Origin: an uncultured Cyclobacteriaceae bacterium
GTDB taxonomy: Bacteria > Bacteroidota > Bacteroidia > Cytophagales > Cyclobacteriaceae
Direction of reading: 5' to 3'
NCBI GenBank assembly: GCA_947492745.1
Contig: CANLOE010000025.1
Location: forward strand, 1-64,000
Length of the DNA stretch: 64,000 nt
This document shows, one piece after another, positions 23,037 through 55,700 of the stretch. Within the stretch, counting starts at the first letter, position 1. Each line of letters begins with the position of its first letter. A program made the translations under genes and the position numbers. The notes under the pieces are model-generated. The model was not told the origin of the DNA. It searched no databases and saw nothing but the letters and a program-made list of their open reading frames with translations.

Positions 23037-23045
23037 AGCTATAGC

Positions 23046-24290: not shown

Positions 24291-24314
24291 TAGGTTAAGT
24301 TTATAGATTATGTA

Positions 24315-25562: not shown

Positions 25563-25578
25563 TTTGGTAAAATCGTCA

Positions 25579-25827
25579 TTAAGGTAAGGTCATTTTTTCC
25601 AATAGCATATCCGCTAGCTCGCCGAGGTTGCCTGCTGTATGAAATTCAAATCGGTGAGCCACAAGCCCCAAATCTTCCATCATCGTTTCAATAAGTTCTG
25701 CCCGTTCAACAGACCCTCCACCCAATAGGCATAAAAAGGAGTCGTATTCCACCTCCTCTTTTTCCAGATTGGGTACGATATCCATCAGACGCTGTACAAT
25801 CAGATCGAACACCTCTTCCTTTTTCAT
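25579..25827 (-). CDS. Small free-standing acyl carrier protein 1
   Basis: An 82-residue ACP; phosphopantetheine site is S39 in LGGGSVERAELIETM, where most carrier proteins have DSL. Helices 1 and 2 (VFDLIVQRLMDIVPN and the stretch after S39) are recognisable. It lies 4 bp after a second small ACP gene and before the Ser-KS. Beta-branching cassettes usually have one donor ACP, so one of the two may carry another unit; which one is the acetyl donor cannot be told. Confidence 0.85.
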   Translation of the reverse strand: MKKEEVFDLIVQRLMDIVPNLEKEEVEYDSFLCLLGGGSVERAELIETMMEDLGLVAHRFEFHTAGNLGELADMLLEKMTLP

Positions 25828-25831
25828 TGCG

Positions 25832-26068
25832 TTATCCTTTCTCCACGATCATATCGGCCAGTTCGTTGATGGTCTGCGCCCCGACGAACTCTACTCTTGA
25901 GGATTCCGATTCCAATCGTTCCAGGGTCATGGTGATCAGTTCGCCCCTGTCCAGTGAGTTCGCTCCCAAATCGACAAAGGTATCGTCGAGTGATAGCTCC
26001 TCGTTTTCCAGTGCAGGGATGATTTCCAATAAGTTTTCTTTGATAATACTGACTACTTTCTGTTTCAT
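25832..26068 (-). CDS. Small free-standing acyl carrier protein 2
   Basis: A 78-residue ACP with S38 in the site LGANSLDRGELITMTLE, the more canonical of the two. It lies 13 bp after the AT-ER gene. The likely role is donor ACP (AcpK-like) of the beta-branching cassette, loaded with malonate by the AT and decarboxylated by the Ser-KS. It shares with its neighbour the (R)xELI segment after the serine but is otherwise clearly diverged, so the pair is not a recent duplication. Confidence 0.88.
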   Translation of the reverse strand: MKQKVVSIIKENLLEIIPALENEELSLDDTFVDLGANSLDRGELITMTLERLESESSRVEFVGAQTINELADMIVEKG

Positions 26069-39600: not shown

Positions 39601-42600
39601 TCGCTGTAGTGTATCTTTTGGATACCTCTGAATACCGCTCCCAGGTTCAGTCCGATGGTACTGAAGAGTTCATAGCATGACTTTCCTTCTTTTGCCTGGC
39701 CCAAGCGCTTTTTGATGGCTTCCATATCCCTGTTCTCAGGTCGGGGCAATGCTGCGGTAGCTATCTTTCCTTTTCCGTTCAGCACTTTGGGTGCTGTTTC
39801 GCTTTCGAAAGAGTACACTTCATAGGTGTTTTCTTCTCCATCGGGATGGATGCTGATGCATACCTGAACGGGCGCATCGGTGACACGGATAGGGTCCAGC
39901 CATTGTATCTCTTTGATCTGAGTGACTTTCTGCGCCGTACTCAGCTCTCCCGCTGCCCGGGCCAGTTCGATATAGGCCACACCGGGAAGCACCATTTCCT
40001 CACCGACTTTGTGATGGCTCAGGAAGTTCTCCTTACCCGTGAAGGTACTCTTGAAATTCTGTGAGGCCAGGTTCGATTCGTTACGGTGCAACAGCGGGTG
40101 CAGTTTCCCACTTGTCGTAGCGTTCAATGTAAGGTCTCCTTCGGACCACCAGTACCGCTCTCGGGCAAAAGGGTAGGTCGGCAGTTCAAGCTTAGAGGGT
40201 TCTGCTTCGGTGTAGAGCAGCGTCCAGTCGATTTCCGCACCGCTGACCCAGAATCGGGCCAAGGATTCCAGTTCGTTGTTCCGGAGCGCACTTTCCAGGT
40301 ATGCCTTGCCGGCATTGCCTTCCAGCAGGATTTGATTGCTGTCATTTCCTTTGAGGCTATTGCCCGTATAAGCTTTGGTATAGTTGCCCTGCTGATAATC
40401 GGCCAGTTGTGAACGGAGCATCCCATGACTTTCCGTGACGATGGCCAAGCGCTCTTCCATCGCCTGCCGTCCCACTTGCAGGGTATAGGCTATATCGTAT
40501 AGGCTATCCTGCGGGTGGGCCACAAGGTGTTTTTCCAGATTGACCGCTTGTTCCTTGAGGCGTTCCTTGTTTTTTGCCGACAGGGTAATCACTACAGGTA
40601 GACCTGTAGGCTTGGCCATTGGTTTTTCTTTCGGGTACTCTTCCAGTACCAGGTGCGCATTGGTCCCGCTGAAGCCAAAACTACTGATGGCCGTTCTTCT
40701 GGGCTGATGAGTGGGGCTATCCCAGGCTTTCAGCTCGGTATTGATGTAAAAAGGGCTGTTCTCCAAATCAATATGCTCATTGAGCCGAGAGAAATTGAGC
40801 GAGGGCGGTATCTGCCGGTGCTGTAGGGAAAGTAGCATCTTGATGACACCGGATATACCGGCGGCGGTCAGGGCGTGCCCGATATTGGTCTTGACACTCC
40901 CGATACCGCAATACGCTGTTCTGTCCGTATACCGCTGGAAAGATTCCTTTAGGGCCTTGATCTCTATGGGATCGCCCAGTTTGGTACCCGTACCATGCGC
41001 CTCTATATAGGTGATGGTCTGCGGGTCGATATCGAATCTGTCATACACTTTGGTCAGCAAAGCGACCTGTGAGTCCTTGCTGGGAGCAGTGATTCCGTTC
41101 GTAGCTCCGTCCTGGTTGATACCCCAACCTTTGACAACTCCGTAGATCCTATCCTTGTCTTTTTTGGCCTGAGCCAATTTTTTCAGTACCAATACGCCCA
41201 CGGCTTCAGCGGGGACGAAGCCATTGGCAGTGGTATCGAAGGTATGGCACTGCCCATCGCTGCTCAGCATGCCGGCCTTGCTGGTCATGATGTGCAACTT
41301 GGGCGTGGGCAGAAGTCCTACACCACCGGCGAGGGCGATATCACTATTGCCGAGCAGCAGACTGTCACAGGCCTGGGCTATGGCCACCAGGGAGCTGGAG
41401 CAAGCCGTATCGATGGACATACACGGACCTCTGAGGTTCAATAGATAGGAAATACGGGCACTTAGGATGGCATTGCTATTGCCCGTCAGGTTATGGGCTT
41501 CCAGGTTATCGGTCTGTCCGGGAACATCCCTTTCATAATCACCATGGGCCACACCGACAAATACGCCGCAGTTTTGGTCGGACAATCGCTCGGCTGCGTA
41601 ACCCGCATCTTCTATCGCTTTCCAGCACTCTTCCAAAAAGAGGCGTTGCTGTGGGTCCATCATCTCTGCTTCCGATGGGGAGATGTTGAAGAACAAAGGG
41701 TCGAACTTATCGATATCCTTGAGCATGCCCATCCACTTACTGTAGGACTTGCCTTCTGCTTTGGGGTCTTCATCATAGTAGGAATCCAAAGGCCATTTGT
41801 CTTCACCTACTTCCACTACTGAGTTGCGTCCTGCTTTCAGGTTCTCCCAAAAGTCGGCTTTGTTTTCAGCCCCCGGCATTCTACAGGAAACCCCGACAAT
41901 GGCAATGTCCATTTCAGTGGGTCGGGCTTGCGGTTCTTTTTCACTCCATGAAGCAGAGGATGTTATCGGCACCTGGGGCTTGGGTTGCTTTTCTCCCAAG
42001 CGGATGCGGACTTGTTGGGCCAGCTTTCCCTGTGATTGTAGTTGTGTCTTCAATGTTCCGCTGAGATCTTGGATGTCGGTATGGCTATGGCTGATGACGA
42101 CCTTACCGATATGTTGCCCACTTTCCACATAGGTCATGGCCTCATTGATGCGGTCCAGTGGATATATCTTGCTTACAATGGGCCGAATTTTGCCCTCTTC
42201 GATCAGGCCTTCCAGATAGCTCATCATTTCCCGCATTGTGGGCATGTTATTACTGCTGGACAGGAGTATTTTTCGCAAATCGATACTTTTGATTTCCTGA
42301 TTTTCGACCAGCTTGGAAAGGTCCAGTTTTGGACTGGTTTTCAGGGCATGCACTGCCAACTCAATATAGCGTCCTCCCGAACTCAATAGGTTCAGACCTT
42401 TCTGGATCATTTCCCCGGACAGCATGTTGAGCACGACATCGAAGCCTTTTCCTCGGGTCAGTGTTCTCATCTCTTCTTCGAAATCATGGGTCGATTTGTA
42501 ATTGCCCAAATTCCCTAGGCCGATTTCTCTTAAAAAGTCCAGTTTGTCGGCTTTGCTGGAGGTTCCATAGACCTCGGCTCCCATCAACCTTGCCAATTGT

Positions 42601-45600
42601 AGGGCCATCAACCCGCAGCCGCCCGCTGCGGTCTGCACCAGGATACGCTCATTCGGCTTGAGTTCTGCCTTGAGTAGAGCTTGGTATACGGTGATGAATA
42701 CGACGGGTAGACTACAGGCCTCTTCATGCGATAGTTTTTTCGGTTTTCCTGCGGTCGTGGTTACGGAGACATTGACAAAGCTGCTATGCCCTCCGAGTTG
42801 CGCCCCGGTAATGGCCACGACTTCATCCCCTTCTGCAAACTCGGTGACATCCGGCCCTACTTTGGTCACTTGTCCACTGACCTCGAAACCTGGGACAAAA
42901 GGATAGGCGGGCATGGTCGGATAGAGTCCCTTGACGCACATGATATCGGGGAAATTGACGCTGGAGGCCATTACCTTTATCTGAACCTCTCCCGATTCCG
43001 GGTCGGGCAGTGCTATGGTTTCCAAATGAGTCTCCTCGATACCCTGAACCGTTTTGACAAGATAGCCCTTATTTTGGGAGTCCTCTGACGTGATGCTCAG
43101 TGCTACTTTCTGTGCTGTGGCGGCTTGGGTCCGTAATTGGGTTTCCGGTAGTTTTGCCGAGGGTCGAGCTTCCATCGCGGCAATAAAGGAGGTCAGCTGT
43201 CCCACCGTGGGATGATCGTAAAGGTCGGTGGCCGATAGGTTGAGGTCAAGGGCTTTGTTGATATTCTTGACATATTCCACACCCGTGATGGAGTCCATAC
43301 CGTAATCAATGAATTTACGGTCCTGCGCTACCTTTTCGTCCAGATAGAGGATATCCTGCAGTTGAGTGGAAAGTATATCGGCAATTGCTTTTGCCGACAG
43401 CGCAGTAGTGCTGTTGAAAGGCGGGGCCTCCGCTGCTTCCGGCAAGGCGATGGTAAGCTCATTGCCCGTTTCGCTGTTGACTGCCGTTTCTTTGCCAACA
43501 GCATGGTGCTTTTCACTAATGAACTTGGCCAAATCGGACACTGTGGGATGATCATAGAGATCGGTGGCAGAGATGTTGATGTTCAGGGCCGTGTTGATGA
43601 GTTTCACGTACTCGACTCCTGTGATGGAATCCATACCGTAATCGATGAATTTGCGTTTTGGAGCGATTTTTTCATCCAAGTATAGGATATCCTGTAGCTG
43701 CTGGGACAGCACTTCCGATATTTCCTTTTCGGACAGTAACAATTTGTTTTCCGTGGATCCATTATCGCTGTTTCCATCCATGATTTCCATAGAATCGGCG
43801 GAGACCGTGCTTTGCTCTGGCTCATGGTCCAAGCGGATCTTTATCTCTTCGATAGTGGGAGTACTTTTAGGCCCATCCTCGGTTGTTTCCAGTTGTACCT
43901 TTTGCTGCGATGCCCTATTATCCGCGAGGGCTATCACCGGCACGCTTGACCGTGATATGGACTTTCGTGCTTCGAGGGTCGATGGAGTAGTAGCGACCGT
44001 CGCGGGTTCGGTTTTTCTTTTGCGGTCGATCCAGTATCTTTTTCGCTCAAAGGGGTAGGTGGGCAGTCCTACCTTTTGGGGTCGGTGGTCTGTATGGAAT
44101 TGCTCCCAGTCCAGCTTTGCGCCCTTTACCCAGAGCTGTGCGAGTACTTCCAGTTCCTTATTGGCAATGGCTTCCCTGATCATTGCCTTTCCTACAGCTC
44201 CTTTGAGTGGCAGATTCAGGTCATCACTTTTGGCATTGCCCGAAAAGTAGCCTGTTTTCTTCCCTTTCAGGTAGTTGTCCAAAAGGGTCATGAGTTGCTC
44301 CCTGGTCTCTATCACACAGGCAAACCGTTCTTCCATTTCACTCCTGCCCAGCTGTAGGGTATAGGCCATATCCGCAAGGTCAAGTGAAGGATTTTCCGTT
44401 AGAAATGCACTCAGGTTATGAAGCTGTGCCAACAGGCGATCGCAGTTCTTGGCCGATATGACCATGATTTGCGGCCCCTGAACAATAGCGGTGTCCACTC
44501 TCTCTTTGGGAAGATGCTCTTCGATGACGACGTGCACATTGGTACCACTGAAGCCAAAGCTGTTGATGGCTGCCCGGCGTGGCTGCCCGGGAGCCACCTC
44601 CCAGTTTCTGAGGTCGCTATTGATGAAGAAGGGGCTATCCTTCAGCGGTATGTGTGGATTGAGGGTATTGAAATTGAGACTCGGGAAGAGCTGTTTTTCC
44701 TGTATGGACAAGAGTACTTTAATGAGGCCCGAGACCCCGGCAGCGGTCAGGGCATGCCCGATATTGGTCTTGACACTACCTATACCGCAAAATTCCTTTT
44801 TGTTGGTATAGGTTTGAAAGGATTCTTTCAGGGCTTTTATCTCTATGGGGTCGCCCAGTTTGGTACCCGTTCCATGTGCTTCCACATAGCTAATGGTACC
44901 GGGATCGATATCGAACTTGTCGTATACCCCTTTCTGCAATTGTGTCTGGGATTTATCACTGGGTGCGGTAATACCGTTGGTCGCACCGTCCTGGTTCATG
45001 CCCCAGCCTTTGATAATGCCATAGATCCTATCCCCGTCCGCTTCGGCGCGGTCCCTTCTCTTCAACACCACTACTCCCACACCCTCTGCGGGCACGAAAC
45101 CATTGGCAGATTCATCAAAGGTATGGCACTGTCCGTCTTCACTGAGCATACCCGCCTTACTGGTCAGGATATGCAGGTTTGGGGTACTCAGGACACTCAC
45201 CCCACCGGCCAGTGCCCAATCACAATTGTCCAGCAATAGGCTATCACAGGCTTGGGCCACAGCGACCAAGGAACTGGAACAGGCGGTATCGATGGATACA
45301 CTGGGCCCCTTGAGGTTCAGGAAATAGGAGATGCGGGCACTGAGAATGGAGTTATTGGTACTGATGAGCGAATAAGAGTCCAGTCCTTCTTTGTCCAGTC
45401 CGTTTTCAGTATTGTAATCGCTGGCCGTTACTCCCACAAATACACCGCAACGCTGCTCGGATAATTTTTTGGGGTCATAGCCGGCATCTTCTATGGCCGC
45501 CCAGCTCTGTTCCAGAAATACCCTTTGCTGTGGGTCCATGACTCGGGCTTCTTTGGGCGAGATATTGAAGAACAGCGGGTCGAACTTGTCGCTATGTTCG

Positions 45601-48600
45601 AGCACGCCCATCCATTTGCTATAGGATTTTCCTTCTGCCGATTTGTCCAGATCGAAATATTCGGATTCGGGCCATTTTTCTTCGGGGACTTCCTTGATAC
45701 TGTTTCTGCCGGCTTTCAGGTTTTCCAAAAAGGAATGACTATCGGCTGCGCCCGGCATGCGTGTGGACAACCCTACGATGGCAATGTCCCGTGGCGAAAC
45801 GGTCCCTTTGGTATTCTTTTTCTTTGCCTCGATAGCGGGGGAAATGGCTTTGGGAGATTCCGAAGGCTGCCGAGGGACCGATACGTTCACTTTCAGTGCC
45901 GGAGGTGCTGTTGTTTCAGTGACCTGTCGATGACCATTGGGAACCTCTTGGTGCTGCCCTACGGTACTTATAGTAGCAGCGGGCAGTGCCTCGTACACAA
46001 AGCGGCTCAATTGATCCAAGGTAGGATAGTTATAGAGGTCGGTAGCAGCCAGTTCGAGGATAAAGGTATCGTTGATTTTCTGAATCAGCTCTACGCCGAT
46101 GACCGAGTCCAGCCCTAGGTTGATGAACTTTTCGTCCAGATCTATCTGTTCCGGTGCGATGTAGAGGATACCCGCCAGCATTTCCAGCAATTGTTGTGCA
46201 ACCTCTGCTTCTGTATGGGATTTGGGAACAGCAGTGGACTTGGGTTCAGGTTCCATCGGGGCCATCAGGATCTCTTCAGGGTCTTGAGCAGGGTATTCCG
46301 AACGGGTTGTGGGCAATGCTTCGTGTATGAAGCTGCCCAGTGTTTCCAAGGTCGGGTAATTGTAGAGGTCGGTAGCGGCCAGTTCCAGCAGGAAGGTGTC
46401 ATTGATTTTCTGAATCAATTCCACGCCGATGACCGAGTCCAGTCCCAGATTGATAAATTTCTCTTCGGCATCGATCTGCTCGGGTGCGATATAGAGAATG
46501 TCGGCCAGCATCTGCAACAATACTTGGCTCACTTCGGACAAGGTATGTGACTTAGGCTGTTCCAGATGTGGCATATCAAGGTTCGTTTTAGTTGTATTTG
46601 AGGTTGTAGAAGGGGTTTCACTTATTATCGATGATTCTTCCATGCGTATCAGCTGCACTTTACTTTGTGTGCCGGACATTTCATTTCCGATTGTATTTTC
46701 ATCTTTTTGTTGTAATCTGACTTTCTCTTTCTCTTTTGACTCCGTTTTAGTCGGTGCTTTCCGTACTACTTCCGATGCGGTCTCGGTGACCCAGTGCCGC
46801 TCTCTGGCAAAAGGATAGGTCGGTAGACTGATTTTGGCCGGGCGGGCTGCGTTGCTGTACAGGGCCGTCCAGTCCACTGTTCCACCATGGCACCATATAT
46901 CGAGTACCTTTTCGTATTCCCCTTCCTGTAACAGTACCGTAGTTGAGTTCGTACCAAGGGAGTTCTTCAGTTCTTCCAGCCTTCTTCTGCCTTTCTTCAC
47001 ACTGCCCGCATGTACCGCAGTATCCGTGGACAGGTAGTTCGCCAATTGCTCTTTCAGGTGGGCTATGCTATCCGTTCGGAAGGCCATACGTTCTTCCATA
47101 GCTTCCCTGCCCGCTTGTAGGGTATAGGCGATGTCGTGGAGTGAGCGGTCATCTTGGTCTACCAAAAATTGACTCAACAGAGTGGCATAGTCCCTGAGCC
47201 GTTCCTTGTTTCGGGCAGAAAGTAGGATGAGTGCAGGTATACCGTAGGCTGCGGTCGGTTTCGGCCCGGGGGTATATTCTTCCAGCACCATGTGGGCATT
47301 GGTACCTCCAAAACCAAAACTGCTGACGGCTGCTCTTCGGGGTATATCCTTTGCGGGCCGGTTCCAATCTTTCAGTTGGGTGCTGATATAAAAGGGCGAG
47401 TTTTCCAGCTCGATCTGTTCGTTGAGCGTATCGAAATGAAGGTTGGGCACATACTTTCGGTGCTGCATCATGAGTATGGTCTTGATTACCCCGGCCACAC
47501 CCGAGGCCATGGCCGTATGCCCGATATTCGTCTTGACCGATCCGATGGCGCAGTACTGTTTTTTGTCGGTATACTTTCCGAAGGAGTGGGTCAGGGCTTC
47601 CATTTCGATAGGGTCCCCCAATTTGGTGCCCGTACCATGGGCCTCGACATAGGTAATGGTGCCCGGGTCAATGGCGTAATCGGCATAGATCCGCTGCTGC
47701 AATTCGGCCTGCGAACGCATACTGGGGGCGGTGATACCGTTGGTCCGCCCATCTTGGTTGACACCACTGGCTTTGATTAGGGCATATATCCTATCTCCAT
47801 CCTTTTCGGCCTCTTCCCGTTTTTTCAATAATAGAACACCTACTCCTTCTCCGGACACAATACCATCTGCCGAATCATCGAAGGTCTTGCATCGCCCTTC
47901 TTTGGAGGGCATTCCTGTCTGGCTGGTCCAGATATGGCCCAGTGGGGTGGTCATCAGGCATACCCCTCCTGCCAGTGCCATGGTGCTTTCCCCTGACAGT
48001 AGGCTTTGGCAAGCCCTGTCAATAGCTACCAAAGAGCTGGAGCAGGCGGTGTCCAGGGCCAGCGCGGGGCCGGTGAAGTTCATATAGTAGGAAATCCGGG
48101 AGGCCAGTATGGCAGGTGAGTTACCCGTGAAAGCGGATTTTCTACCTGCTCCCTTATGTTTTTGCAGAAGCTGCAAGTAGTCTCCCGCACCGGCACCCAC
48201 AAAAACTCCAATGCGCTGTCGATCGAGCCCTTCCATGCTATAGCCGGCATCTTCCATGGTTTTCCAGCTCTCTTCCAGAAACACCCTTTGCTGGGGGTCC
48301 ATGATTTTGGCTTCTCTGGGCGATATACCGAAGAAAAGCGGGTCGAATTTGTCCGAATCGGCGATGAAACCTCCCCATTTGCTATAGGCTGTGCCTTCGT
48401 GATTCGGGTCGGGGTGGTACCATTCGTAACCGTTCCAGTGCTTTTCCCCGATTTCCTGGATAGCGTCCACACCCTCACATAGGTTCTTCCAGTATTCCCC
48501 GATGTTTGCTGCTCCGGGAAAGCGTCCCGACATACCGACAATGGCTATGTCCTTACTGCTATCGGCAAGCTTATCGGTCACTTTGGATATTGCCTCGCGG

Positions 48601-49784
48601 TGTTCGTTATGGCTATTTTCCCCCAATTGTGCTTTGAGTTGCTCTTCCGAAAAGGCATGCAGGCGTAGGCCGCGGAGGTAGAGCAGTGTATTTTCTTCTT
48701 CATCGATAACCTCTACATCAAAATCGGGCCTGTCCCCTTCTTTTCGCCGGGCCACCAGACGGTACTTGCCCGTAGCTTGGCTTCCCAGCAGGGCAACTTC
48801 CCGAATGGTATAAGGGATTACCTCCACGCTATCCTGCGCTTCCCCGGAAAGGTTTCGCCTTTCGTGAAGCATGGTGGCCACCAAAGCAGCGTTCATTGCC
48901 CGCGCCAAATAGGTGGAAGGGGATGAGGTCAGCTCAAAAGTACCGACAATGCCCTTTTTCGTAAAGGTCAGGGAGGTGTAGGGATTGCTATAGAAATCAC
49001 CAAAGCCCTTTTTTCGGTAGATGTCCGTCAGTTCCTGTGGGACCAAAGTCTGCTCTACCGCTTCCTGTTCTGCGAAAGTACTGTCCATCTGTTCTTCCCC
49101 TTCTCCATCAAGGTCCACGAAGCCTTTGAGGTGCAGCGTCGGCTCCTGTGCTGATTCAGAACGGCTATGGATACTGAAGCGCAGTCGACCATCGGACAGT
49201 TCTTTCAATTCAAAGAACAGTTCCGGACTTTCTTCCGCTGCCGTGATCAGTGGGACATGAAGGATGATTTCTTTCAAACTAAGTCTGTCTATTTTGAACT
49301 GTTCCTTGAAAACGGAATATGCCAGTTCTACATAGGCATCGGTCGGAAGGACATGATGGCCAAATATCAAATGATCGCGCAAACAGGGGTTGTTCTCTAT
49401 GTTCACCCGATACGAAAACCGTACCTGCCCTGTCTCTTGGATACTGCCCTCCGAGGCAATGGCCCTAAAGAAGGACTCTTGGATCGTCTCCGTCTCTTCT
49501 ACAGTATCTTTTTTGGGCATCCCTTCGGCGGGTTGTTCTGTAGTGTTCCACTCCTGTTGGGCAAGATGGGCCGATAATTCCCTAAGGTTGGGATAATCGT
49601 ATAGGGTAGAGGCTTTTAGGTCAATACCCAGCGCCGCATTGGTCGCTTTGATGAACTCCATACCCAGTATGGAATCCAGGCCCAGTTGGCTAAACGGTTT
49701 TTTTTCATTCAGTTCTTCTATATCCAGATAAAGAAGGTCACCTACAATTTGGGATAGCAGTGCTTTGATATCTTCAGGCTTCAT
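28329..49784 (-). CDS. Trans-AT polyketide synthase, terminal protein with thioesterase (about 7,151 aa)
   Basis: Giant PKS protein finishing the chain. Order: ACP, DH*, KS, ACP, ACP, KS, ACP, ACP, ER, KS, DH, KR, ACP, KS, DH, KR, ACP, KS, ACP, KS*, ACP, TE. There is no AT domain in any module, so malonate must come from the AT-ER protein. The first five KS domains have Cys, HGTGT and NIGH; the last is variant. The start is the ATG at 49784 (MKPEDIKALLSQ); a TTG two codons earlier is an unlikely start. The gene before it ends 15 bp upstream of this ATG. Module entries give the details. The TE at the C-terminus marks this protein as the last of the assembly line, so release as acid or macrolactone is expected. 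Confidence 0.96.
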   Translation of the reverse strand: MKPEDIKALLSQIVGDLLYLDIEELNEKKPFSQLGLDSILGMEFIKATNAALGIDLKASTLYDYPNLRELSAHLAQQEWNTTEQPAEGMPKKDTVEETETIQESFFRAIASEGSIQETGQVRFSYRVNIENNPCLRDHLIFGHHVLPTDAYVELAYSVFKEQFKIDRLSLKEIILHVPLITAAEESPELFFELKELSDGRLRFSIHSRSESAQEPTLHLKGFVDLDGEGEEQMDSTFAEQEAVEQTLVPQELTDIYRKKGFGDFYSNPYTSLTFTKKGIVGTFELTSSPSTYLARAMNAALVATMLHERRNLSGEAQDSVEVIPYTIREVALLGSQATGKYRLVARRKEGDRPDFDVEVIDEEENTLLYLRGLRLHAFSEEQLKAQLGENSHNEHREAISKVTDKLADSSKDIAIVGMSGRFPGAANIGEYWKNLCEGVDAIQEIGEKHWNGYEWYHPDPNHEGTAYSKWGGFIADSDKFDPLFFGISPREAKIMDPQQRVFLEESWKTMEDAGYSMEGLDRQRIGVFVGAGAGDYLQLLQKHKGAGRKSAFTGNSPAILASRISYYMNFTGPALALDTACSSSLVAIDRACQSLLSGESTMALAGGVCLMTTPLGHIWTSQTGMPSKEGRCKTFDDSADGIVSGEGVGVLLLKKREEAEKDGDRIYALIKASGVNQDGRTNGITAPSMRSQAELQQRIYADYAIDPGTITYVEAHGTGTKLGDPIEMEALTHSFGKYTDKKQYCAIGSVKTNIGHTAMASGVAGVIKTILMMQHRKYVPNLHFDTLNEQIELENSPFYISTQLKDWNRPAKDIPRRAAVSSFGFGGTNAHMVLEEYTPGPKPTAAYGIPALILLSARNKERLRDYATLLSQFLVDQDDRSLHDIAYTLQAGREAMEERMAFRTDSIAHLKEQLANYLSTDTAVHAGSVKKGRRRLEELKNSLGTNSTTVLLQEGEYEKVLDIWCHGGTVDWTALYSNAARPAKISLPTYPFARERHWVTETASEVVRKAPTKTESKEKEKVRLQQKDENTIGNEMSGTQSKVQLIRMEESSIISETPSTTSNTTKTNLDMPHLEQPKSHTLSEVSQVLLQMLADILYIAPEQIDAEEKFINLGLDSVIGVELIQKINDTFLLELAATDLYNYPTLETLGSFIHEALPTTRSEYPAQDPEEILMAPMEPEPKSTAVPKSHTEAEVAQQLLEMLAGILYIAPEQIDLDEKFINLGLDSVIGVELIQKINDTFILELAATDLYNYPTLDQLSRFVYEALPAATISTVGQHQEVPNGHRQVTETTAPPALKVNVSVPRQPSESPKAISPAIEAKKKNTKGTVSPRDIAIVGLSTRMPGAADSHSFLENLKAGRNSIKEVPEEKWPESEYFDLDKSAEGKSYSKWMGVLEHSDKFDPLFFNISPKEARVMDPQQRVFLEQSWAAIEDAGYDPKKLSEQRCGVFVGVTASDYNTENGLDKEGLDSYSLISTNNSILSARISYFLNLKGPSVSIDTACSSSLVAVAQACDSLLLDNCDWALAGGVSVLSTPNLHILTSKAGMLSEDGQCHTFDESANGFVPAEGVGVVVLKRRDRAEADGDRIYGIIKGWGMNQDGATNGITAPSDKSQTQLQKGVYDKFDIDPGTISYVEAHGTGTKLGDPIEIKALKESFQTYTNKKEFCGIGSVKTNIGHALTAAGVSGLIKVLLSIQEKQLFPSLNFNTLNPHIPLKDSPFFINSDLRNWEVAPGQPRRAAINSFGFSGTNVHVVIEEHLPKERVDTAIVQGPQIMVISAKNCDRLLAQLHNLSAFLTENPSLDLADMAYTLQLGRSEMEERFACVIETREQLMTLLDNYLKGKKTGYFSGNAKSDDLNLPLKGAVGKAMIREAIANKELEVLAQLWVKGAKLDWEQFHTDHRPQKVGLPTYPFERKRYWIDRKRKTEPATVATTPSTLEARKSISRSSVPVIALADNRASQQKVQLETTEDGPKSTPTIEEIKIRLDHEPEQSTVSADSMEIMDGNSDNGSTENKLLLSEKEISEVLSQQLQDILYLDEKIAPKRKFIDYGMDSITGVEYVKLINTALNINISATDLYDHPTVSDLAKFISEKHHAVGKETAVNSETGNELTIALPEAAEAPPFNSTTALSAKAIADILSTQLQDILYLDEKVAQDRKFIDYGMDSITGVEYVKNINKALDLNLSATDLYDHPTVGQLTSFIAAMEARPSAKLPETQLRTQAATAQKVALSITSEDSQNKGYLVKTVQGIEETHLETIALPDPESGEVQIKVMASSVNFPDIMCVKGLYPTMPAYPFVPGFEVSGQVTKVGPDVTEFAEGDEVVAITGAQLGGHSSFVNVSVTTTAGKPKKLSHEEACSLPVVFITVYQALLKAELKPNERILVQTAAGGCGLMALQLARLMGAEVYGTSSKADKLDFLREIGLGNLGNYKSTHDFEEEMRTLTRGKGFDVVLNMLSGEMIQKGLNLLSSGGRYIELAVHALKTSPKLDLSKLVENQEIKSIDLRKILLSSSNNMPTMREMMSYLEGLIEEGKIRPIVSKIYPLDRINEAMTYVESGQHIGKVVISHSHTDIQDLSGTLKTQLQSQGKLAQQVRIRLGEKQPKPQVPITSSASWSEKEPQARPTEMDIAIVGVSCRMPGAENKADFWENLKAGRNSVVEVGEDKWPLDSYYDEDPKAEGKSYSKWMGMLKDIDKFDPLFFNISPSEAEMMDPQQRLFLEECWKAIEDAGYAAERLSDQNCGVFVGVAHGDYERDVPGQTDNLEAHNLTGNSNAILSARISYLLNLRGPCMSIDTACSSSLVAIAQACDSLLLGNSDIALAGGVGLLPTPKLHIMTSKAGMLSSDGQCHTFDTTANGFVPAEAVGVLVLKKLAQAKKDKDRIYGVVKGWGINQDGATNGITAPSKDSQVALLTKVYDRFDIDPQTITYIEAHGTGTKLGDPIEIKALKESFQRYTDRTAYCGIGSVKTNIGHALTAAGISGVIKMLLSLQHRQIPPSLNFSRLNEHIDLENSPFYINTELKAWDSPTHQPRRTAISSFGFSGTNAHLVLEEYPKEKPMAKPTGLPVVITLSAKNKERLKEQAVNLEKHLVAHPQDSLYDIAYTLQVGRQAMEERLAIVTESHGMLRSQLADYQQGNYTKAYTGNSLKGNDSNQILLEGNAGKAYLESALRNNELESLARFWVSGAEIDWTLLYTEAEPSKLELPTYPFARERYWWSEGDLTLNATTSGKLHPLLHRNESNLASQNFKSTFTGKENFLSHHKVGEEMVLPGVAYIELARAAGELSTAQKVTQIKEIQWLDPIRVTDAPVQVCISIHPDGEENTYEVYSFESETAPKVLNGKGKIATAALPRPENRDMEAIKKRLGQAKEGKSCYELFSTIGLNLGAVFRGIQKIHYSEEEVLSEIALPLEEGYQLLPGILDSALQSIVGLNFAADEPRIQLPYSIEEVNIYGVLPAKVWSYVRRVKGANGKEKTGHYNVDILDEKGQILLTFRDFFTLPLMSGTLPLSAVQASEEPRTGIYDYTWQEAPLSTVSENGTGTDLVSIVLAGSTASVAEGLRRALSLEVSHVTPDTGHLAYFDGLFDRLGADIKNNKASHTLVLCSTATLSDHGFVSGLFKSAHRENPKVSGKVLCVDEELMQDSTALASLIAQELSTGDTEVKYTGQARYIKDLSPIAPLVAGEGPLRIEEGGLYLITGGSGGLGSLFAAHIGNTKKAKPILIGRRPLNKDIEQVLQAVPNAVYHSCDIGDKTAVAQLMKDIQSRYGHLKGIIHSAGHVADDFMVNKIKEVRHTVLAPKIQGTLNLDECSKDMALDFVVYFSSVAAIMGNAGQTDYAAANTFMDHHAQYRNTLRHRGLRQGLTMSINWPLWAEGGMQVAEDVAEYMKKQWGLMPLPKEEGLRVFDELLDQGKEQAAVFYGLVDKFAEKWKAQQQKERKHGTVPASTSSVQHLQEPTEHQLVAFMSELLKIDPQLIDRQKELGSYGFDSILLSKYTNTLNDHFDIDVQPTVFFSYPTVEKLAQYLLEEYPQQLEKVMGDQAEQQVPATIPTALPTPEALPPTGPSFRKPPRFRSESLSHSPQEQVGTVPRKEEEAIAIVGLSGRYPDSPDLEAFWQNLHDNKDLISEVPQERWDWKKYYGDPLKEKGKTKAKWGGFMPDVDKFDPFYFNILPSEAELMDPQQRLILETVFSAVEDAGITQEKIKGSNTGIFIGVASSDYAMRYGDENNANIEAQFSTGSSHSVLVNRISYLLDLHGPSEPIDTACSSSLVALHRAVENIRSGYCDMAIAGGVNVLLLPQITISFSQAGMLSDDGRCKSFDESANGYVRSEGVGALVLKPLRQAELDGDPIYGIVRGTGENHGGRANTLTSPNPMAQKELLVKAYRSAGVDPGDISYIEAHGTGTPLGDPIEVEGLKAAFKELYRDKGQAMPQEPHCAIGTVKANIGHLEAAAGMAGITKVLLAMKHNTLPGNPHLKNPNKYLKLAGSPFALQQETRTWSKTGDVPKIAGVSSFGFGGSNAHIIIEEYIAPEKAGYSDDAAALILLSAKTPEALKDRVRDLQAHVASNPREALHEIAYTLQVGRDHHEERLAFIAEDREILKKQLSDYLHGEHRDQFRAKVRKKTVPAIDTATVTASLKEQNLSALAEHWVAGAQIDWSQLYPERTLSKLSLPTYPFARERYWIETEAIADSPQGKPAELHPLLHRNESDLKAQKYESTYTGKENFLAHHLVQDRKVLPGVAYLEMAREAGVRSTGQQINQLKEVVWLSPIEVNGTPRNVGISVHPQQEGLTYEVYSAMGDENKVHSQGILLNKDGKRTRSYDLAQLRDKLPQSKEKEEFYALFREIGLNYGSSFQGVEHLFYGEGEVLSKIALKKEPGYVLTPGILDSALQTCAGLNFGNEEKALVLPYSVQEVNLYAELPESLWCYARRNKDKDAGAVIHYDIDILNDAGEVLIDFVDFVGLKFSGDAPKNAEKKTHTYDYPWKESPVDTEKQSTSPLATQVYLIGGTGIMADKLKEVLEIEVEALPVSDSLDYAVQVADRLRTDMKNNGPSHNLVVMSASDAVHFGFLSGLFKSVAQETPKVSGKVLLLEDGILHDVESLGALLNVERIIDTTEVRYQNGTREVRELIPVEAVPEEGLSDSCIKEGGTYLITGGGGGLGRIFARYIASVKDTRILLVGRSSISTELQAFLGEFPRTSYHSCDMGDREALKGLINKVKSEYGGLQGIIHAAGRTEDGLLLHKTSEEIRSVLAPKMLGTKYLDELTKDMTLDFMVYFSSVAAIMGNAGQADYAMANTYLDNYAHYRNALKAAGKRKGHTISINWPLWEEGGIQVNAEVQKYMEQQWGMSPMPTTDGLSVFEKLMTTDKEQAIVTYGKKLKAMKKTVKVKEKQAPSALSDKEQEKLKAFSIRYIKGILHKDLKLPEDRIDLEVPFEDYGIDSLSITKLTNSLGQVFDNLPRTLFFEHQNLGELLEYFMEEHTDTLLKLAGMSPGDNPATVMTEDTPVTPIAVLPDSRPRFIRAVEETNTVHKPLGQTANGAEDIAIIGLGGQYPGAKDVNAFWENLKQGRDSITEIPEERWDLSGFYDAQKGQAGKSFSKWGGFIDGYDRFDSKFFKISPKEAEMMDPQERLFLQTVHEAIEDAGYTKETLRGSKTKEKNVLRSKVGVYVGVMYEEYQLFGVEETLKGRPTALWSSPSSIANRASYFFDFHGPSLAVDTMCSSSLTAIEIACGSLRSGSIDYAVAGGVNVSIHPNKYLVLSQGNFVSSKGRCESFGEGAEGYVPAEGVGAVLLKPLSKAIKDGDHIYGTIKGIAVNHGGKTNGYTVPNPKAQSAVIQEAVRNANIDTAEISYIEAHGTGTSLGDPIEIAGLSKVFAPENNQEKKIKIGSVKSNIGHGESMAAISGITKVLLQLKHRTLVPSLHSETLNPNIDFENSPFSVQQQLEPWTRDGEGPLLAGVSSFGAGGSNGHIIIEEYREQRKAPVHASGPVVLVLSAKNTDRLRAQAENLLQHLQTRPALDLQSMAYTLQVGRQALEERMALVADSAEDIIDKLSAYLEGKSEGIFLGNTKKKESGFLLTGQAGQAYVTTAIKNNELPSLAQLWVKGMDMDWLLLYGEEKPLKMSLPTYPFAPERYWYNAYEQNRQKKVDTVGTLNPVLVRKDNLEPKRVLEAAGAAEADVFQAHEVPSLKIALEDPNDSTVDYSASRAASTILEERPQIKEDRQPTPQEDRTAGAPAISLQSIKEKIKDIFDNILHIPSDEFDEEASFVDVGLDSISGIEILKAVNDTYGTSIQGAALYENPTLDEFAKMILKEAAALPAIETTTRAEVTDVEQKEPAVVLEEPEPIAVSHSDSKQSLVEISAVEVAGSEEDVLTKDIAIIGAEGLFPGADNPGELWSNSLSGESRPNASKGWMGINEGVVDKDLQQLLDKPIEGDITSDLRQHKLVFGVLAKVLASSGMGRKELYGSNTGVFIGLTQHFDNQSMENSRSMASMLASKISYEFNLSGPSEIVNSACTSSFQAIHKAVQAIHNGECTQAIVGSVNVITKETATYKGMEDLVGLLSKEGEMKSFGQEADGIVRSEGIGMVMLKRLDLAESEGNTIQALVKGSSYLHGGKNISWEAPNPKGIKSAVRKSLENAKIDPNTIDYIEAHGIANRISDAIELGAIDAVYKELSSEKDKKWRISSIKPTVGHSGIASGMASLIKVIMALRSKTIPGIPGLGEVNSDLSPSLSLVLEDNAIPWKNGSYPRRAALNSFAVGGTNAHIILEEYKGKGTAALPLPEEEGGKVQVPEKEPEERTPLETIPSKEKEKIDTVFKDITGKELADISMDLPLSELDLTSLQVLDLMSGLNEALDLHLTMGQVLVQQDLGALLSLIEQDLKAPKENYHKDIIYFKNDGNRETGHTYILPGMPGIVDGYYELAEKFSASGNVFGLQMKGVREEGEALTTLAAMAAHNLDLIKELAPTGPVQIVAHSYGGLVLHEMLKQLKDIPDLIIGNVILIDSYSNTLNLKVNDRITAFIRTIVDQSDETLVLDIDKMTKKIMRTAKSKRVAVIHDLLDKAGVRLDRNKLHKMWEVYHASLDTDHELSGLFDVSATLIRAQGEFLKGASEDLGWKAHYSNLRVINAEGDHFSVTKEPHCSAWFAQLNETENHKNQ
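30860..33180 (-). other. PKS module KS-ACP
   Basis: KS (about 33179-31875) has VDTMCSSSLTAIEIAC, EAHGTGT and SNIGHGE, so it appears competent. No reductive domain lies between it and the ACP (GLDSISG, Ser near 30981), only a 300-residue linker. It would leave a beta-keto group unless acted on in trans. Confidence 0.85.
33350..37521 (-). other. PKS module KS-DH-KR-ACP
   Basis: KS (about 37520-36215; IDTACSSS, HGTGT, NIGH). DH (about 35715-34900) has the His of AHHLVQDRKVLPG and the Asp of ILDSALQ. KR (about 34860-33665) has TGGGGGLG, YFSSVAA and GQADYAMAN. ACP has GIDSLSI (Ser at 33480-33482). An olefin is predicted. Confidence 0.88.
37700..41909 (-). other. PKS module KS-DH-KR-ACP after the second doublet-ACP module
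   Basis: KS (about 41909-40630; IDTACSSS with TSKAGMLSSDGQCHTFD). DH (about 40108-39300) has SHHKVGEEMVLPG and ILDSALQ. KR (about 39240-38030) has TGGSGGLG, YFSSVAA and GQTDYAAAN; its AGHVADD matches the Asp of B-type ketoreductases. ACP has GFDSILL (Ser near 37837). An olefin is predicted. Confidence 0.88.
42085..45789 (-). other. PKS module KS-ACP-ACP-ER, candidate beta-branching site
   Basis: KS (about 45788-44505; IDTACSSS, HGTGT, NIGH). Then a doublet of nearly identical ACPs (YGMDSITGVEYV; Ser at 43625-43627 and 43290-43292) and an MDR-type ER (about 43035-42085; QTAAGGCGLMALQLA as nucleotide-binding loop). No KR or DH. A beta-keto group held on tandem ACPs is the usual substrate of the HMGS cassette; the ER could saturate the new double bond to a beta-methyl. 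Confidence 0.8.
45980..48551 (-). other. PKS module KS-ACP-ACP, candidate beta-branching site
   Basis: KS (about 48551-47272; LDTACSSS with TSQTGMPSKEGRC, HGTGT, NIGH). Two nearly identical ACPs follow (LGLDSVIGVELIQKINDTF; Ser near 46434 and 46105). No reductive domain. It is a likely target of the beta-branching cassette, though the tryptophan reported after the serine in many branching ACPs is absent. Confidence 0.8.
48640..49784 (-). other. ACP plus DH-like domain, probable enoyl-isomerase (double-bond shift)
   Basis: The ACP (about 49784-49570, GLDSILGMEF) is followed by a double-hotdog domain with the DH histidine H138 (RDHLIFGHHVLP). At the catalytic Asp position it has N298 (MNAALV instead of LDSALQ). 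His without Asp is described for trans-AT enoyl-isomerase domains. It belongs functionally to the KS-ACP that ends the upstream protein. Confidence 0.7.
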
Positions 49785-49799
49785 TGTCAATAGAGTTGT

Positions 49800-52700
49800 T
49801 TACAGGTTCATGTTTTTCAAATGTGCTTTCAGGAATGCACTACTATTTTGTTTGGGCTTTGTCGTTCCATTGGTTTCCTGTGCAGACCGGACTTGGGTAC
49901 CGTACTCCTCTGCCTCCAGTGTAGTGGCCAAAGAAATCTTTTCTGTAGCCGGTGGTCCGGCCGATGTATCGTTTCGTTGAGAATCGACATCTTGGGTTTG
50001 CAGTTTTGCCTTGCCTTGCTTCGCATCGGTCAAATAAGCGGCCAGCTCTTCTACCAATGGATAGTCGTATAGTTTTGAAGCCTTTAGGTCCATGGCAAGG
50101 TCTTTGTTCAGGGCTTTCAGGAATTCCACTCCCAATATCGAATCCAGTCCCAGTTCACTGAAAGGTTTTCTTAGGTCCAGCTCCTCCTCTTCTAGGTAAA
50201 GTAGCCGCTTCAGATGGGTTACTATCACCTGCTTCACTTGTTCCATTCCCTGCTCGGGAGGCATTCGTTTCTCCATGGAGTCCATTTTCTTTTCCGGGAG
50301 ATAGACTCTGCCCATATCCACGGTGTTGGCTTTCTCCTCTCGGGCGATTTCATTGGAAGGCAAGGGCAGCACTTCCAATGCGACACGTAGTTCTCTTTTG
50401 GGCAGTACGTGGGTCTTTTTGTTTTCTACTTTCTTGGGTTCTTGTCGATTTTCATCAAACCAGCACCTTCTCTTTTCAAAGGGATAGCCGGGCAATACTA
50501 CTTTCCGTGGTTTCCCTTCCTTTTGGTAAAGTACTGTCCAATCGATCTTACTGCCTTTGCACCAAGCTTCGGCCAGTGCCGTGGCCTCTTTCTTTTTCAG
50601 GGACCTGTTCAGATCTTCATCGCCGATAGACGGCTCCTCTTCCTGCGTATTGCCATGGAACATGCCGACTGTATTTTGTGATTTCCCGTAGGCGGATAAC
50701 CTTTCCGATAGGTCGGTGATGTTATCGGCAAGGATGGCCAGGCGCTCTTCCATACCATCCCTGCCCACTTGTAGGGTATAGGCCAGGTCATATAGGTCCA
50801 CTTGAGGGTTCGATGCCAAATGGTCTTTCATAGCCCGGGCCAGTTCCTTGAGCTTCTTCGGATTCTTTGCGGATAGCACAAAAATCAATGGTGCCGTGCC
50901 CTTATAGGGTGATGATGGGCTTTTGGGAGGTTCCTCGATAATGACATGGGCATTGCTTCCCCCGATACCGAAGCTACTGACACCTGCGATTTTGGGTATG
51001 GCACCCGATGTCTTCCATACAGTGGTCTCCTTCTGGATGTAGAAAGGGCTTTTCTCCAGTTTCAGGTATTTATTGGGCTGTTGGAGGTGCGGATTGCCGG
51101 GCAGTAGTCCATGCTGCATGGCCAAGAGTACTTTGATAACACCCGCAATGCCCGAAGCGGCCTCCAAGTGACCGATGTTTGCCTTGACAGTGGCTATGGC
51201 ACAATAGGGTCGGTCGGGTACCTTCTGCCCCGATTCCCGGAACAGCTGGGAAAAAGCCGACTTGAGGCCTTCGACTTCGATAGGGTCGCCCAGAGGTGTT
51301 CCCGTACCGTGGGCTTCGATATAGCTGACCTTATCGGGAGCAATACGGGCATTTCCATAGGCTTTCAGCAAGAGTTCTTTCTGTGCATTGGGATTCGGGG
51401 AAGAGAGGGTATTGGCCTTGCCTCCGTGGTTCTCCGCAGTGCCCCGTATCAGACCCAATATAGGGTCTCCGTCCTCCACTGCCCTGCTCAGGGGTTTGAG
51501 TATGATGGCCCCTGCACCTTCGCCCCTGACATAGCCATTGGCCCGCTCGTCGAAACTCTTGCACCGACCCTCTTCGCTGAGCATCCCGGAGTTGCTGAAG
51601 GATAGGGTAAGTTCGGGCGACAGCAGGGCATTTACCCCGCCCGCAATGGCCATGGTACAATGACCGTTCCTGATGTTTTCGACGGCTTTACGGATGGCCA
51701 CCAAGGCACTGGAACAAGCGGTATCCACAGCCTCACTGGGGCCATGGGTATCCAGAAAATAAGATATTCTGTTTACCAATAATGAATGTGATGTGCCTAT
51801 GGAAAACTGTGCTTGGTTGCTCTTTTCATGTTTATTGAGCAATGCAGCATAATCTGCGGTAGCCACGCCGAAGAATACGCCCGTATCGGTACCCTTGAGA
51901 CTTTCGGCGGCTATACCTGCATGCTGTAGGGCATGGTAGACGACCTCCATGACCATCCTCTGTTGGGGATCCATCCAGGCTGCTTCCTTGGGCGATATGT
52001 TGAAGAACAGGGGGTCGAACTTGTCGATATCGGAAATGAAGCCTCCCCATTTGGACTTGGTCTTGGTAGGATCTTCCTTGGCATCGCCGTAGTATTCCCT
52101 CCAGTCCCAGCGGTCCTGTGGCACTTCACTGATCAGATCTCTGTTCTCTTTGAGGTTTTGCCAGAAGGTCTCCAGATCGGGGGAGCCAGGAAAGCGGCAT
52201 CCCATGCCGATGACCGCTATAGGCTCATCAGGCTCCGTTTTTCCTTGGATATCGGTCCGCTCGGGGGCAGGCTCCGAAACAGGCCAGAACCTTGGTGCTC
52301 CTTCACGGAAGAACGTCTCCCCTGCTTCGGGCAAGGCTTCCTGTTCCGTTTGAGTATGTTTTTTCCTATCGAGTTCCGCTTTGTAATTTTTTACCATAAA
52401 GCCCGCCAACTCCTCCAAGGTCGGATAGTTGAAAAAGACGGTAGGCTGTACCTCTAGGTCATAGCGTTGGTTCAGTTCATTGGCAAATTTTGTGAATAAG
52501 ATGGAATCAAAGCCGTACTCACCGAATTCCTTGTCTTTCCTGATATCTTTTGTGTTTTTCTTGATAATGCGTGATGCCATCTCCGACAGCTCGTAGAGCA
52601 GCCCATCCCTCTCCTTTTCGGGGTCCGCTACGTGATTTGGGGAGGTGTCCTTGTCTTTTATCGGTGCGCTGTCCCTATCATGGCCATTGGTCTTTTCCAT

Positions 52701-55700
52701 AAAACGTTCGCTGTCCCCATAGAATACCACAGCTTGGGTCATCTTCGCTTGCATCACTCGGTCAAAAGCCTTTAGGCCCTGTTCATCGGGCATGGGCTCC
52801 AGTCCCCATTTCTGCTTCAGGAATTTTTTACTTTCTTCCTCCAAGGTCATGCCGCCCCGGTTCCATATGGGCCAGTTGATACTACAGGTATGACCGTGGC
52901 GTTTTCCCTGCTCCACCAGCCGGTTTCGGTATGAAGCATAACGGTCCAGATACGCATTGGCCGCAGCATAGTCCGCTTGTCCTACATTGCCCAGAAGGGC
53001 GGCAATGGAAGAGAAATAGAGCATAAAATCCATCGGTAAAGTGGCGGTGGCCTCGTCAAGATTTTTGGCTCCCTGTATCTTTACGCCCAGTACCTGTTGG
53101 ATTTCGCTCGGGGTCTTGTTGACAATGAGGCTGTCCCTGATACTCCCCGCACTGTGGAGCACACCGTCCAATCGACCGTATTTATCCACGATTCCTGCTA
53201 TGAGTGCCTTTACCGATTTCCTATCACTCATATCGCATTGGTAATAGATGGCATTTGGAAGATGGGAGAGTATCGATTTTTTACTTTCGTCCAGTTCGCT
53301 CCTACCCGTAAGTACAATCCGGGTATCCTTGAAAGTACCGATGTGCCGGGAAAAGAGCTGTCCCAGACCACCGAAACCACCCGTGATCAAGTAGGTACCG
53401 CCTTCTTTCAGGTAAGCTTTGGGAGAAGCTTCCCTCTGTTGTTTTACAGGGCAGAGTTGTCTTACCTCGCGGATGCCATTGCGATACCGTACCTCTTGCG
53501 CCGGGTCGTCCTGCTCCTTTTGCAGGATCGTGGCCAGGTCTCCTATCTCCTGTAGTCGCAGTGCATCTACTACCAGCAGCTTTACCCTTAGCATGGGATG
53601 CTCTTGGGACACGGTCTTCAATAGTCCGCTGATGAAACCGTACTCATGATAGTGCTGCTCCTCGCACAAAAGGATAAGCTGTCCTTTGGCACCCTTCCTG
53701 ATTTTCCCTTTTACCTTGTTCAGTACCTCAAGAAAGTAGGCGTACTCGCTCCCATGCCCTATACTATCCACTTCCTCTTCCAGAATCTCTTCCAGTTTTT
53801 CGGCCAGTTGAGGGTTGTCACTGGCGATAAGTATACTCAAATTCTCCGAAAAGCTTTCTACATCCATATCAGTGGATAGCGAACGCGCCTTCCATTCGTT
53901 TTTATAAAGATGGGTCTTGACAGTAGCTAGAGGTGCCTCTACGGGGATAAAGGCAAACTCCCTGAAACGGAGCAGCACTTCCCCGGTTTCGTCCAATAGA
54001 TCGATGTCGTAGTGTAGCACGGGCCCTTCTTCCTTTCCTTTGGCAGTTCTTTTGACATAACTATAGATCTTATCGGGCAGTGGTCGATGAACGTCCACTT
54101 CCCTCACGTTGAAGGGCATCAGCAAGCCCCATTCTTCTCGGACCATGTTCAGACTAATGGCCGTAGTCTGCAGTGCACTGTCCAGTGCCCCGGGTGTCAA
54201 TACATAGCCTTCTCCTTTGGGCAATTCTATCTCGGATAAGGTTTCTTCTTCGTTGAAATGAATTTTCTGTATCCCTTGAAAACTTGGCCCCAAGTGCAGT
54301 CCGATGCTGCGGAACATTTGATAACAATCCTGCCCCGCTCTCGATTCGCCCAACCTACTTTTGATGGCTTCCAGATCCATTCGCTCCGGTCTGGGGAGTA
54401 CCTTCGTGGTCAGTTTTCCCTGACCGTGGACCTGCCTGTCCTTTGACTTCCCCAAGGAACTGATCTGGTAAAACAGCTCGCCGTTCTGTCCGGGCTGTAG
54501 GCTTGTTTCTATTTCCTGGGGTATACCATTGACTTTGATGGGACTCAGCCAAGTGATGTCCCGCAGCTGAGTAATCTTTTGATGAAGGCTCCGCTCACCG
54601 GCTTCCCTGGCCAGTTCGATATAGGCCACTCCGGGCAGTACTTTATCCGCCATTAACCGGTGCTCGGCCAGAAAGTGCTCTTCTCCGCTAAAGGTACTGG
54701 TGAACCTTTGCTGCCGCAGGTCCGAATCATTGGTATGTAACAGCGGATGAAGCCGGCCCGGTCGGTTTTTCAACAGTTCTCGGTCGGAGGGTTGTGGTAT
54801 CCAATGCCTCTCTTTGGCGAAAGGATAGGTAGGTAGAGCTATTCTTTGAGGCTTTCCGTTCGGATACATCCTGTTCCAATCGATAGCAGCGCCATGGACC
54901 CAGGACCGTGCCCATTCCTCCGCCTGTTCTTCGATAGGGTGTTCCTTTCCGATGTCCTGCTTCGATTTACTAGGGTCATTGTGCTGTTTACTACCGAGAT
55001 ACAGACCTTTTTGGCCTTGAGAACCATTCAGGTAGTCTGTCATATGTTCCAAGAGCACTTCCATATCAGAAGCAACGATGGCCAGGCGCTCATCCATGGC
55101 CTGGCGGCCTACCTGTAGGGTATAGGCGATGTCATATAGATTTTCATTCGGATGCTGTTCGATATGGGTTTTGAGGTTTTCCACCTGCTTCCTCAAAGCG
55201 ATGTTACTCTTGGCCGATAGTAGGACTATAGCAGGTCCTTCACCTATGAAGGCCCGAGACCGGGTCAAGGGTGCTGCTTCGAGGACCATGTGTGCATTGG
55301 TACCGCTGAAGCCAAAACTACTGATAGCGGCACGTTTTGGTCCTTTGACCTCATCGGGCCATGGGTTGAGCTTATCATTGATGAAAAAGGGACTGTTCTC
55401 CACATCGATATGTTCATTGGCCTTGATGAAGTTCAGCGTTGGGGGCAGTTGGTCATGTTTGAAGGAGAGCATCACCTTGATAACACCCGCTACTCCTGCC
55501 GCCATGGCAGCGTGGCCTATATTGGTCTTGATACTGCCCAGCCCGCAGTACCCTTTCCTGTCGGTAAATTCCTCAAAAGAACTTTTCAGGGCCCGGAACT
55601 CGATGGGGTCCCCCAACTTGGTGCCTGTACCATGTGCTTCTACATAGGCAATGGACTCCGGGTCTATGCCCAACTGCCGGTAGAGGCCCACTTCCAGATT

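Follow-up and report, generated by a model that had tools for sequence, protein, structure and literature searches.

In trans-acyltransferase (trans-AT) polyketide synthases (PKSs), the clade to which a ketosynthase (KS) belongs tends to match the type of chain that it accepts. A single trans-acting cassette can give β-branches that are endo, exo or reduced, depending on the module, and to our knowledge the way in which it does so has not been fully explained. Enoyl-isomerase (EI) domains are recognized, in the available sections of two papers (PMC9600693 and PMC11672594), by loss of the Pro in the HxxxGxxxxP motif together with loss of the Gln/His in the DxxxQ/H motif of dehydratase (DH) domains. 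Here we describe DHx, the name that we give to a clade of three DH-like domains. Two are in a trans-AT PKS encoded on the minus strand of a 64,000-nucleotide stretch from an uncultured Cyclobacteriaceae bacterium (the window; positions 1 to 64,000 of contig CANLOE010000025.1, assembly GCA_947492745.1; contig 70,341 bases, genome 7.1 Mb), and the third is in a Bacteroidia metagenome-assembled genome (locus L013, same genome as G021 in the searches described below). We favour the view that DHx would work like an EI. In the specific form for which we hold the chances to be about even, DHx is a His-based isomerase that would act on the β-methyl-enoyl product of a 3-hydroxy-3-methylglutaryl-acyl carrier protein (ACP) synthase (HMGS) cassette in a β-branching module. 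If this is true, editing of the branch by a domain in cis would explain branch variety simply, and the domain would be a usable engineering part.

The module considered here is divided between two proteins, and all features listed are on the minus strand. Protein A (6,511 residues) extends past the end of the window and protein B (7,151 residues, N-terminus MKPEDIK) starts with the ATG at 49784. The junction (49785-49802) consists of the TAA stop codon of protein A (49802-49800) and the 15 bases before the ATG of protein B, which is in the same frame. As the initial annotation had proposed, domain scans found a KS and an ACP at the end of the upstream protein and an ACP followed by a DH-like domain at the start of the next. 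The KS (50928-52235, protein A residues 5701-6136) is of the elongating type, with the Cys and both His motifs intact, and no ketoreductase (KR), DH or enoylreductase (ER) lies between it and the last ACP of protein A (50013-50252). With these catalytic residues intact and no KR, the β-keto group should remain. In protein B, the N-terminal ACP (49545-49784, Ser within LGLDSILGMEF) is followed by DHx (48600-49469, residues 106-395) and a further KS (47274-48563, residues 408-837).

A complete HMGS cassette is present at 21517-26068, downstream of the PKS genes. It comprises ECH2, the decarboxylase (21517-22377; nearest PksI, E 5e-88), ECH1, the dehydratase (22251-23036; PRK07112, above cut-off), the HMGS (23046-24290; nearest CurD/PksG, E 2e-183), a decarboxylating KS, KS0 (24315-25562; PRK07103, above cut-off, with ASASG, Ser replacing Cys), and two discrete donor-type ACPs (25579-25827 and 25832-26068) that score 70.1 and 76.7 bits, slightly below the PRK07117 cut-off of 79. 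These two ACPs are adjacent (25579-26068) in a cassette that has one HMGS and one KS0. The ECH2 and ECH1 reading frames as listed overlap by 127 bases (within 21517-23036); homology in ECH2 begins about 39 residues past the listed GTG, so the true start is probably later.

The ACPs adjoining DHx are of the β-branch type. Among solved carriers, the four that best match the ACP of protein B are β-branch ACPs from the mupirocin, curacin and virginiamycin pathways. A tree of 42 ACPs placed all seven DHx-linked ACPs with the 13 reference β-branch ACPs, apart from 16 others (support 98/96); six of the 13 references belong to the mupirocin, curacin, virginiamycin and bacillaene systems, and the other seven were deemed branching from a neighbouring cassette or from the Trp flag. 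This flag, a Trp six residues after the Ser that is predictive but not essential, is absent from the DHx-linked ACPs, all seven of which have Phe in its place. In the accessible portion of PMC10006238, virginiamycin branching ACPs likewise have Phe at this position and ACP5b binds its cassette. A Phe-flag ACP pair also adjoins a cassette in Streptomyces xanthii. The last ACP of protein A and the first ACP of protein B are sisters (82/82), as for a single tandem pair that the gene boundary cuts in two. On this strong sequence context, we assign the KS-ACP/ACP-DHx module as a β-branching module. The link to the HMGS cassette was missed in the initial annotation, as was the second DHx, in protein A.

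In DHx of protein B, the catalytic His is H138 (within HLIFGHHVLP, codon 49373-49371), and N298 (within MNAALV, codon 48893-48891) and V302 occupy the second motif. The contrast drawn in the initial annotation between N298 and the Asp of the cluster's dehydratases stands at the level of the residues: all four canonical DHs of proteins A and B carry LDSALQ, namely those at 61041-61928 (LLDSALQ) and, in the module preceding the split module, at 53889-54740 (ALDSALQ) in protein A, and those at 39240-40088 and 34866-35693 (both ILDSALQ) in protein B. However, the paralogue in protein A (contig 63786-64658, with its C-terminal end alone within the window, at 63786-64000) has VLDGALL and keeps the Asp. 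It is fused in one chain in the order KS, four ACPs, DHx and KS (the last at 62433-63719, residues 1873-2301). The four ACPs, closely similar and of the β-branch type, lie in a row beyond the window (residues 1111-1545, contig about 64700-66005). In L013, a KS-ACP is followed by a protein break and then by DHx-KS. The protein A and L013 domains are 30 and 31 % identical to DHx of protein B, respectively, and the three formed one clade (100/99) in all three DH trees (38, 29 and 31 rows).

The three DHx domains agree around the His and differ at the Asp site. H138 and the Pro of HxxxGxxxxP (P147) are kept in all three. The second motifs are DGALL in protein A, NAALV in protein B and SGAFI in L013, so that the Asp-site residue is Asp, Asn or Ser, and the DxxxQ/H motif of canonical dehydratases is absent from each, with V, L or I in place of Gln/His. 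Mean pairwise identity among the three sequences was 0.67 in the His block and 0.24 in the Asp block, against 0.29 overall. The corresponding values were 0.60, 0.57 and 0.42 for the cluster's canonical DHs and 0.52, 0.46 and 0.34 for the EI group; identity in the Asp block was above the overall value in all four non-DHx groups and below it in DHx. Y125, C134 and T148 are common to the three DHx and occur in none of 35 other DH-fold domains, and H144 occurs in one of the 35. Judged by these comparisons, constraint on DHx is relaxed at the Asp site and strongest in the His block, a pattern that fits a His-based reaction without the Asp.

The KSs that follow the three DHx also formed one clade (100/99), in a tree of 35 rows from which four of 39 KSs had been dropped beforehand. 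The wider group in which this clade is nested includes KSs placed behind β-branch ACPs, bacillaene's among them. As KS clade tracks chain type, the three DHx modules probably pass on one type of chain, whatever the residue at the Asp site. The initial annotation had taken the Asp-to-Asn change as the telling one; since Asp, Asn and Ser all occur within a single DHx clade that is followed by a single KS clade, this change is not the switch. We caution that isomerases should not be called from the Asp residue alone.

The following route is proposed. The cassette would turn the β-ketone into a β-methyl-α,β-enoyl thioester on the ACP pair. The product of PksI is an α,β-enoyl. PksI is the decarboxylase of bacillaene's β-methyl branch according to the part of PMC7501309 that was available. 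As ECH2 is nearest to PksI, and the ER behind one tandem ACP pair of protein B needs an α,β-enoyl, this is also what DHx would receive. The His of DHx, without an Asp partner, would take a proton from the γ side and return a proton at the α carbon, which would shift the double bond to the β,γ position before the chain is accepted by the next KS, one of the clade seen here only after DHx. There is no obvious β-hydroxyl for DHx to eliminate, as the module has no KR and ECH1 serves the HMG step. At the split module the incoming chain would probably be a 2-enoyl; with a DH and a KR in the preceding module, the γ carbon is likely to be vinylic already. The methyl of the branch would then be the simplest source of the γ proton and an exomethylene the simplest predicted product, with a dienyl shift also possible. 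The slot behind the branching ACPs is occupied by DHx in the split module, by nothing in the module after it (tandem β-branch-type ACPs with a Leu flag, 45978-46547), and by an ER (42087-42989) directly behind a neighbouring pair with a Tyr flag (43164-43736). One cassette could thereby give three outcomes, isomerised, plain enoyl and saturated.

More tentatively, and with somewhat less confidence than doubt, we suggest that DHx may be a domain class of its own for β-branching: a His-only double-bond mover behind branching ACPs that bears the signature C-x3-H-x5-H-V-x-P-T, is paired with a KS clade of its own and varies branch geometry (for example to exomethylene) at chosen modules. In the family, DHx was found in two of 390 genomes with E below 1e-100 (its own and G021), with four further matches at about 1e-8 to 1e-9 that fall with ordinary DHs; an earlier family search found it in two of 196. 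Searches of the phylum and of the class each found only its own genome among 395. Two of 390 genomes matched in the order, its own and G913, in which the match is a canonical DH. Genus searches gave one of one for both DHx genomes, and a pattern scan of 84,980 species recovered one relative, L013. With overlapping genome samples and a strict pattern scan, more members may exist.

Several observations weigh against an isomerase role. Only three DHx sequences are known in all, on long branches, and the paralogue in protein A retains both His and Asp. P147, whose loss is used to recognize EIs, is retained in all three. The wider KS group also contains two KSs (A_4262 and L033p3_748) that follow methyltransferase (MT) modules. 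In the DH tree of 38 rows (a DH match of 184 aa having been dropped from 39), DHx, EIs and split-module DHs formed one group (96/86), but once long or oddly composed rows were dropped (nine for the 29-row tree, ten for the 31-row tree), the trees do not decide whether DHx is nearest to EIs, to split-module DHs or to neither. In an approximately unbiased (AU) test with 12 such rows dropped, holding DHx with the EIs cost 1.85 log units (p 0.197). The initial annotation had named a grouping with active DHs as evidence that would count against an isomerase; in all three trees (38, 29 and 31 rows) DHx lies apart from the four canonical DHs of the cluster, although holding it with them cost 8.93 log units in the AU test and is not rejected (p 0.109).

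Structure prediction had also been proposed as a check. An AlphaFold2 model of DHx of protein B (mean predicted local distance difference test score 73.4), built from a six-sequence alignment, matched PKS dehydratases with Z up to 25.8, and the predicted structure is thus a DH fold, but its Z scores do not sort the subtype. A further point against the isomerase role is that the match to the EI 4u3v (Z 21.8, root-mean-square deviation (rmsd) 3.2, 235 aligned) is below that to the ordinary DH 8qk4 (Z 25.8, rmsd 4.3, 274 aligned), although four of the six alignment rows were canonical DHs. The pyran synthase 6b2v (Z 22.2, rmsd 3.1, 251 aligned) is level with the others; it is not among the 23 profile matches of DHx of protein B at E up to 1, which excludes nothing.

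A relaxed Asp site and long branches would also be expected if DHx were a catalytically dead DH remnant, retained in a scaffolding or gatekeeping role between the β-branch ACPs and the next KS. Pfam profiles add to this: the N-terminal hotdog of DHx of protein B is recognized (PF21089, E 2e-16), and the C-terminal half falls under the cut-off (PF14765, E 0.01), with scores across the three DHx of 15.8, 24.7 and 19.6 against 23.7 bits. However, a remnant does not readily account for a His block that is far better conserved than the whole, for H138 in all three, or for Y125, C134 and T148, shared by DHx and absent from the 35 other DH-fold domains. We consider a dead remnant unlikely, though deserving of serious attention.

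It is rather improbable that DHx is a working dehydratase descended from split-module DHs of the 5e1v/BaeM type, with the hydroxyl supplied by another module or by a trans-acting KR. The nearest solved relative of DHx by profile is indeed 5e1v, a trans-AT split-module DH (E 5e-13), the 38-row tree groups DHx with split-module DHs as well as EIs, and the protein A paralogue has both the His and the Asp. However, split-module DHs lie between a non-elongating KS (EANGSG) and an ACP, whereas DHx comes after an elongating KS and its ACPs. In addition, the Asp is lost in two of the three DHx, the Gln/His in all three, and the module is without a KR.

A further alternative, in line with the initial annotation, is an ordinary trans-AT EI with His but no Asp, marked by the Asp-to-Asn change, that would work on an unbranched chain across the interface of two proteins. 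In its favour, Asn is also found at the Asp site in three of four EI-type references (PksR, 4u3v; BaeR; and a Nostoc relative), as it is in one of the three DHx, that of protein B. However, the Pro position is V, V, L and L in the four references and Pro in all DHx, and the relatives with Asp and Ser, the β-branch ACPs with their cassette, and the fused paralogue in protein A do not fit. The title of PDB entry 6mbh describes a double variant of GphF DH1 that carries an L-to-P change and is inactive as an isomerase; the change is presumably at this same Pro position. With the Gln/His lost and the Pro kept, we do not file DHx as an EI, and we give an ordinary EI very little weight.

The idea of a shift across a protein interface with an ACP on each side holds in part: there are ACPs on both sides of the split, but the interface is not essential, because protein A has the same parts fused and protein B has an ACP on the same chain as DHx. 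The boundary thus appears incidental. The break falls between two ACPs in protein B and between ACP and DHx in L013. In another trans-AT synthase of the same order (L037; G913:C19:270000-285000), the branching ACP array is itself divided between proteins: one frame carries a KS, a degenerate DH and two Trp-flag ACPs, and the next carries two more Trp-flag ACPs ahead of a KS. That the split is an assembly or sequencing error, with A and B one giant protein, would be suggested by the lone in-frame stop codons, TAA here and TAG at a comparable point in L013, but it is barely credible given a split in two independent genomes, both with an ATG no more than 15 bases from the stop, and the similarly broken array in the order-mate.

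The complete domain orders, from hidden Markov model and motif scans, are as follows. Protein A has an LnmK-like domain, ACP, KS, four ACPs, DHx, KS, DH, KR, MT, ACP, ACP, ER, KS, DH, KR, ACP, KS and ACP. Protein B has ACP, DHx, KS, ACP, ACP, KS, ACP, ACP, ER, KS, DH, KR, ACP, KS, DH, KR, ACP, KS, ACP, a KS-like domain, ACP and thioesterase. The N-terminal domain of protein A, beyond the window (contig 68100-69332), belongs to the LnmK acyltransferase/decarboxylase family (TIGR04098, E 1e-51, above cut-off) and is fused to an ACP ahead of the first KS, which suggests a propionyl starter. The KS-like domain of protein B (residues 6401-6765, about 29490-30584) precedes the last ACP and the thioesterase, and has the HGTGT motif altered to EAHGIAN.

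Two database records came to notice among the comparison loci. A Bacillus velezensis 'plasmid' record (NZ_CP083716.1:604000-653900, L019) contains mutS, mutL, glnA and a bacillaene cluster that is apparently shortened after the cassette genes, and is probably a piece of chromosome. A 6.8-kb Bacillus spizizenii 'plasmid' record (NZ_CP118022.1, L026) encodes a PksR-like EI domain and is apparently a fragment of a synthase gene.

In the literature searched on EIs and β-branching, no DH-fold domain after β-branch ACPs was found; key papers lie outside that search, which is thus no proof of unpublished status. Two described systems were considered and rejected: the rhizoxin-type vinylogous 'B' branching domain, which, in the text of PMC9113145 that was accessible, directly follows the KS, and the oxygen-insertion split module, as outlined in the available part of PMC8262917, as no monooxygenase was found in the two PKS proteins and nine other scanned open reading frames.

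The closest described systems each share some features with DHx. Like the bacillaene EI (PksR/BaeR, 4u3v; second motif NSAYL), DHx has a DH fold, the His, a hydrophobic residue in place of Gln/His and, in protein B, the Asn. Unlike that EI, which lies between KS and ACP, it retains the Pro, its Asn is not fixed (D, N or S), and it is placed behind ACPs in a β-branching module. The split-module DHs (PksL, 5e1v, and the N-terminus of BaeM) provide the top sequence match among solved structures, and DHx of L013 similarly starts a protein after a split. However, those DHs follow a non-elongating KS, precede an ACP and keep the Asp, whereas DHx stands behind β-branch ACPs and only one of its three members has the Asp. 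The β-methylation modules of virginiamycin (VirA ACP5a/5b) and bacillaene (PksL di-ACP) resemble the split module in having a KS, tandem ACPs and an HMGS cassette, and VirA shares the Phe flag of the DHx-linked ACPs. Unlike in these modules, a DH-fold domain here stands behind the ACPs and the ACP pair is split over two proteins.

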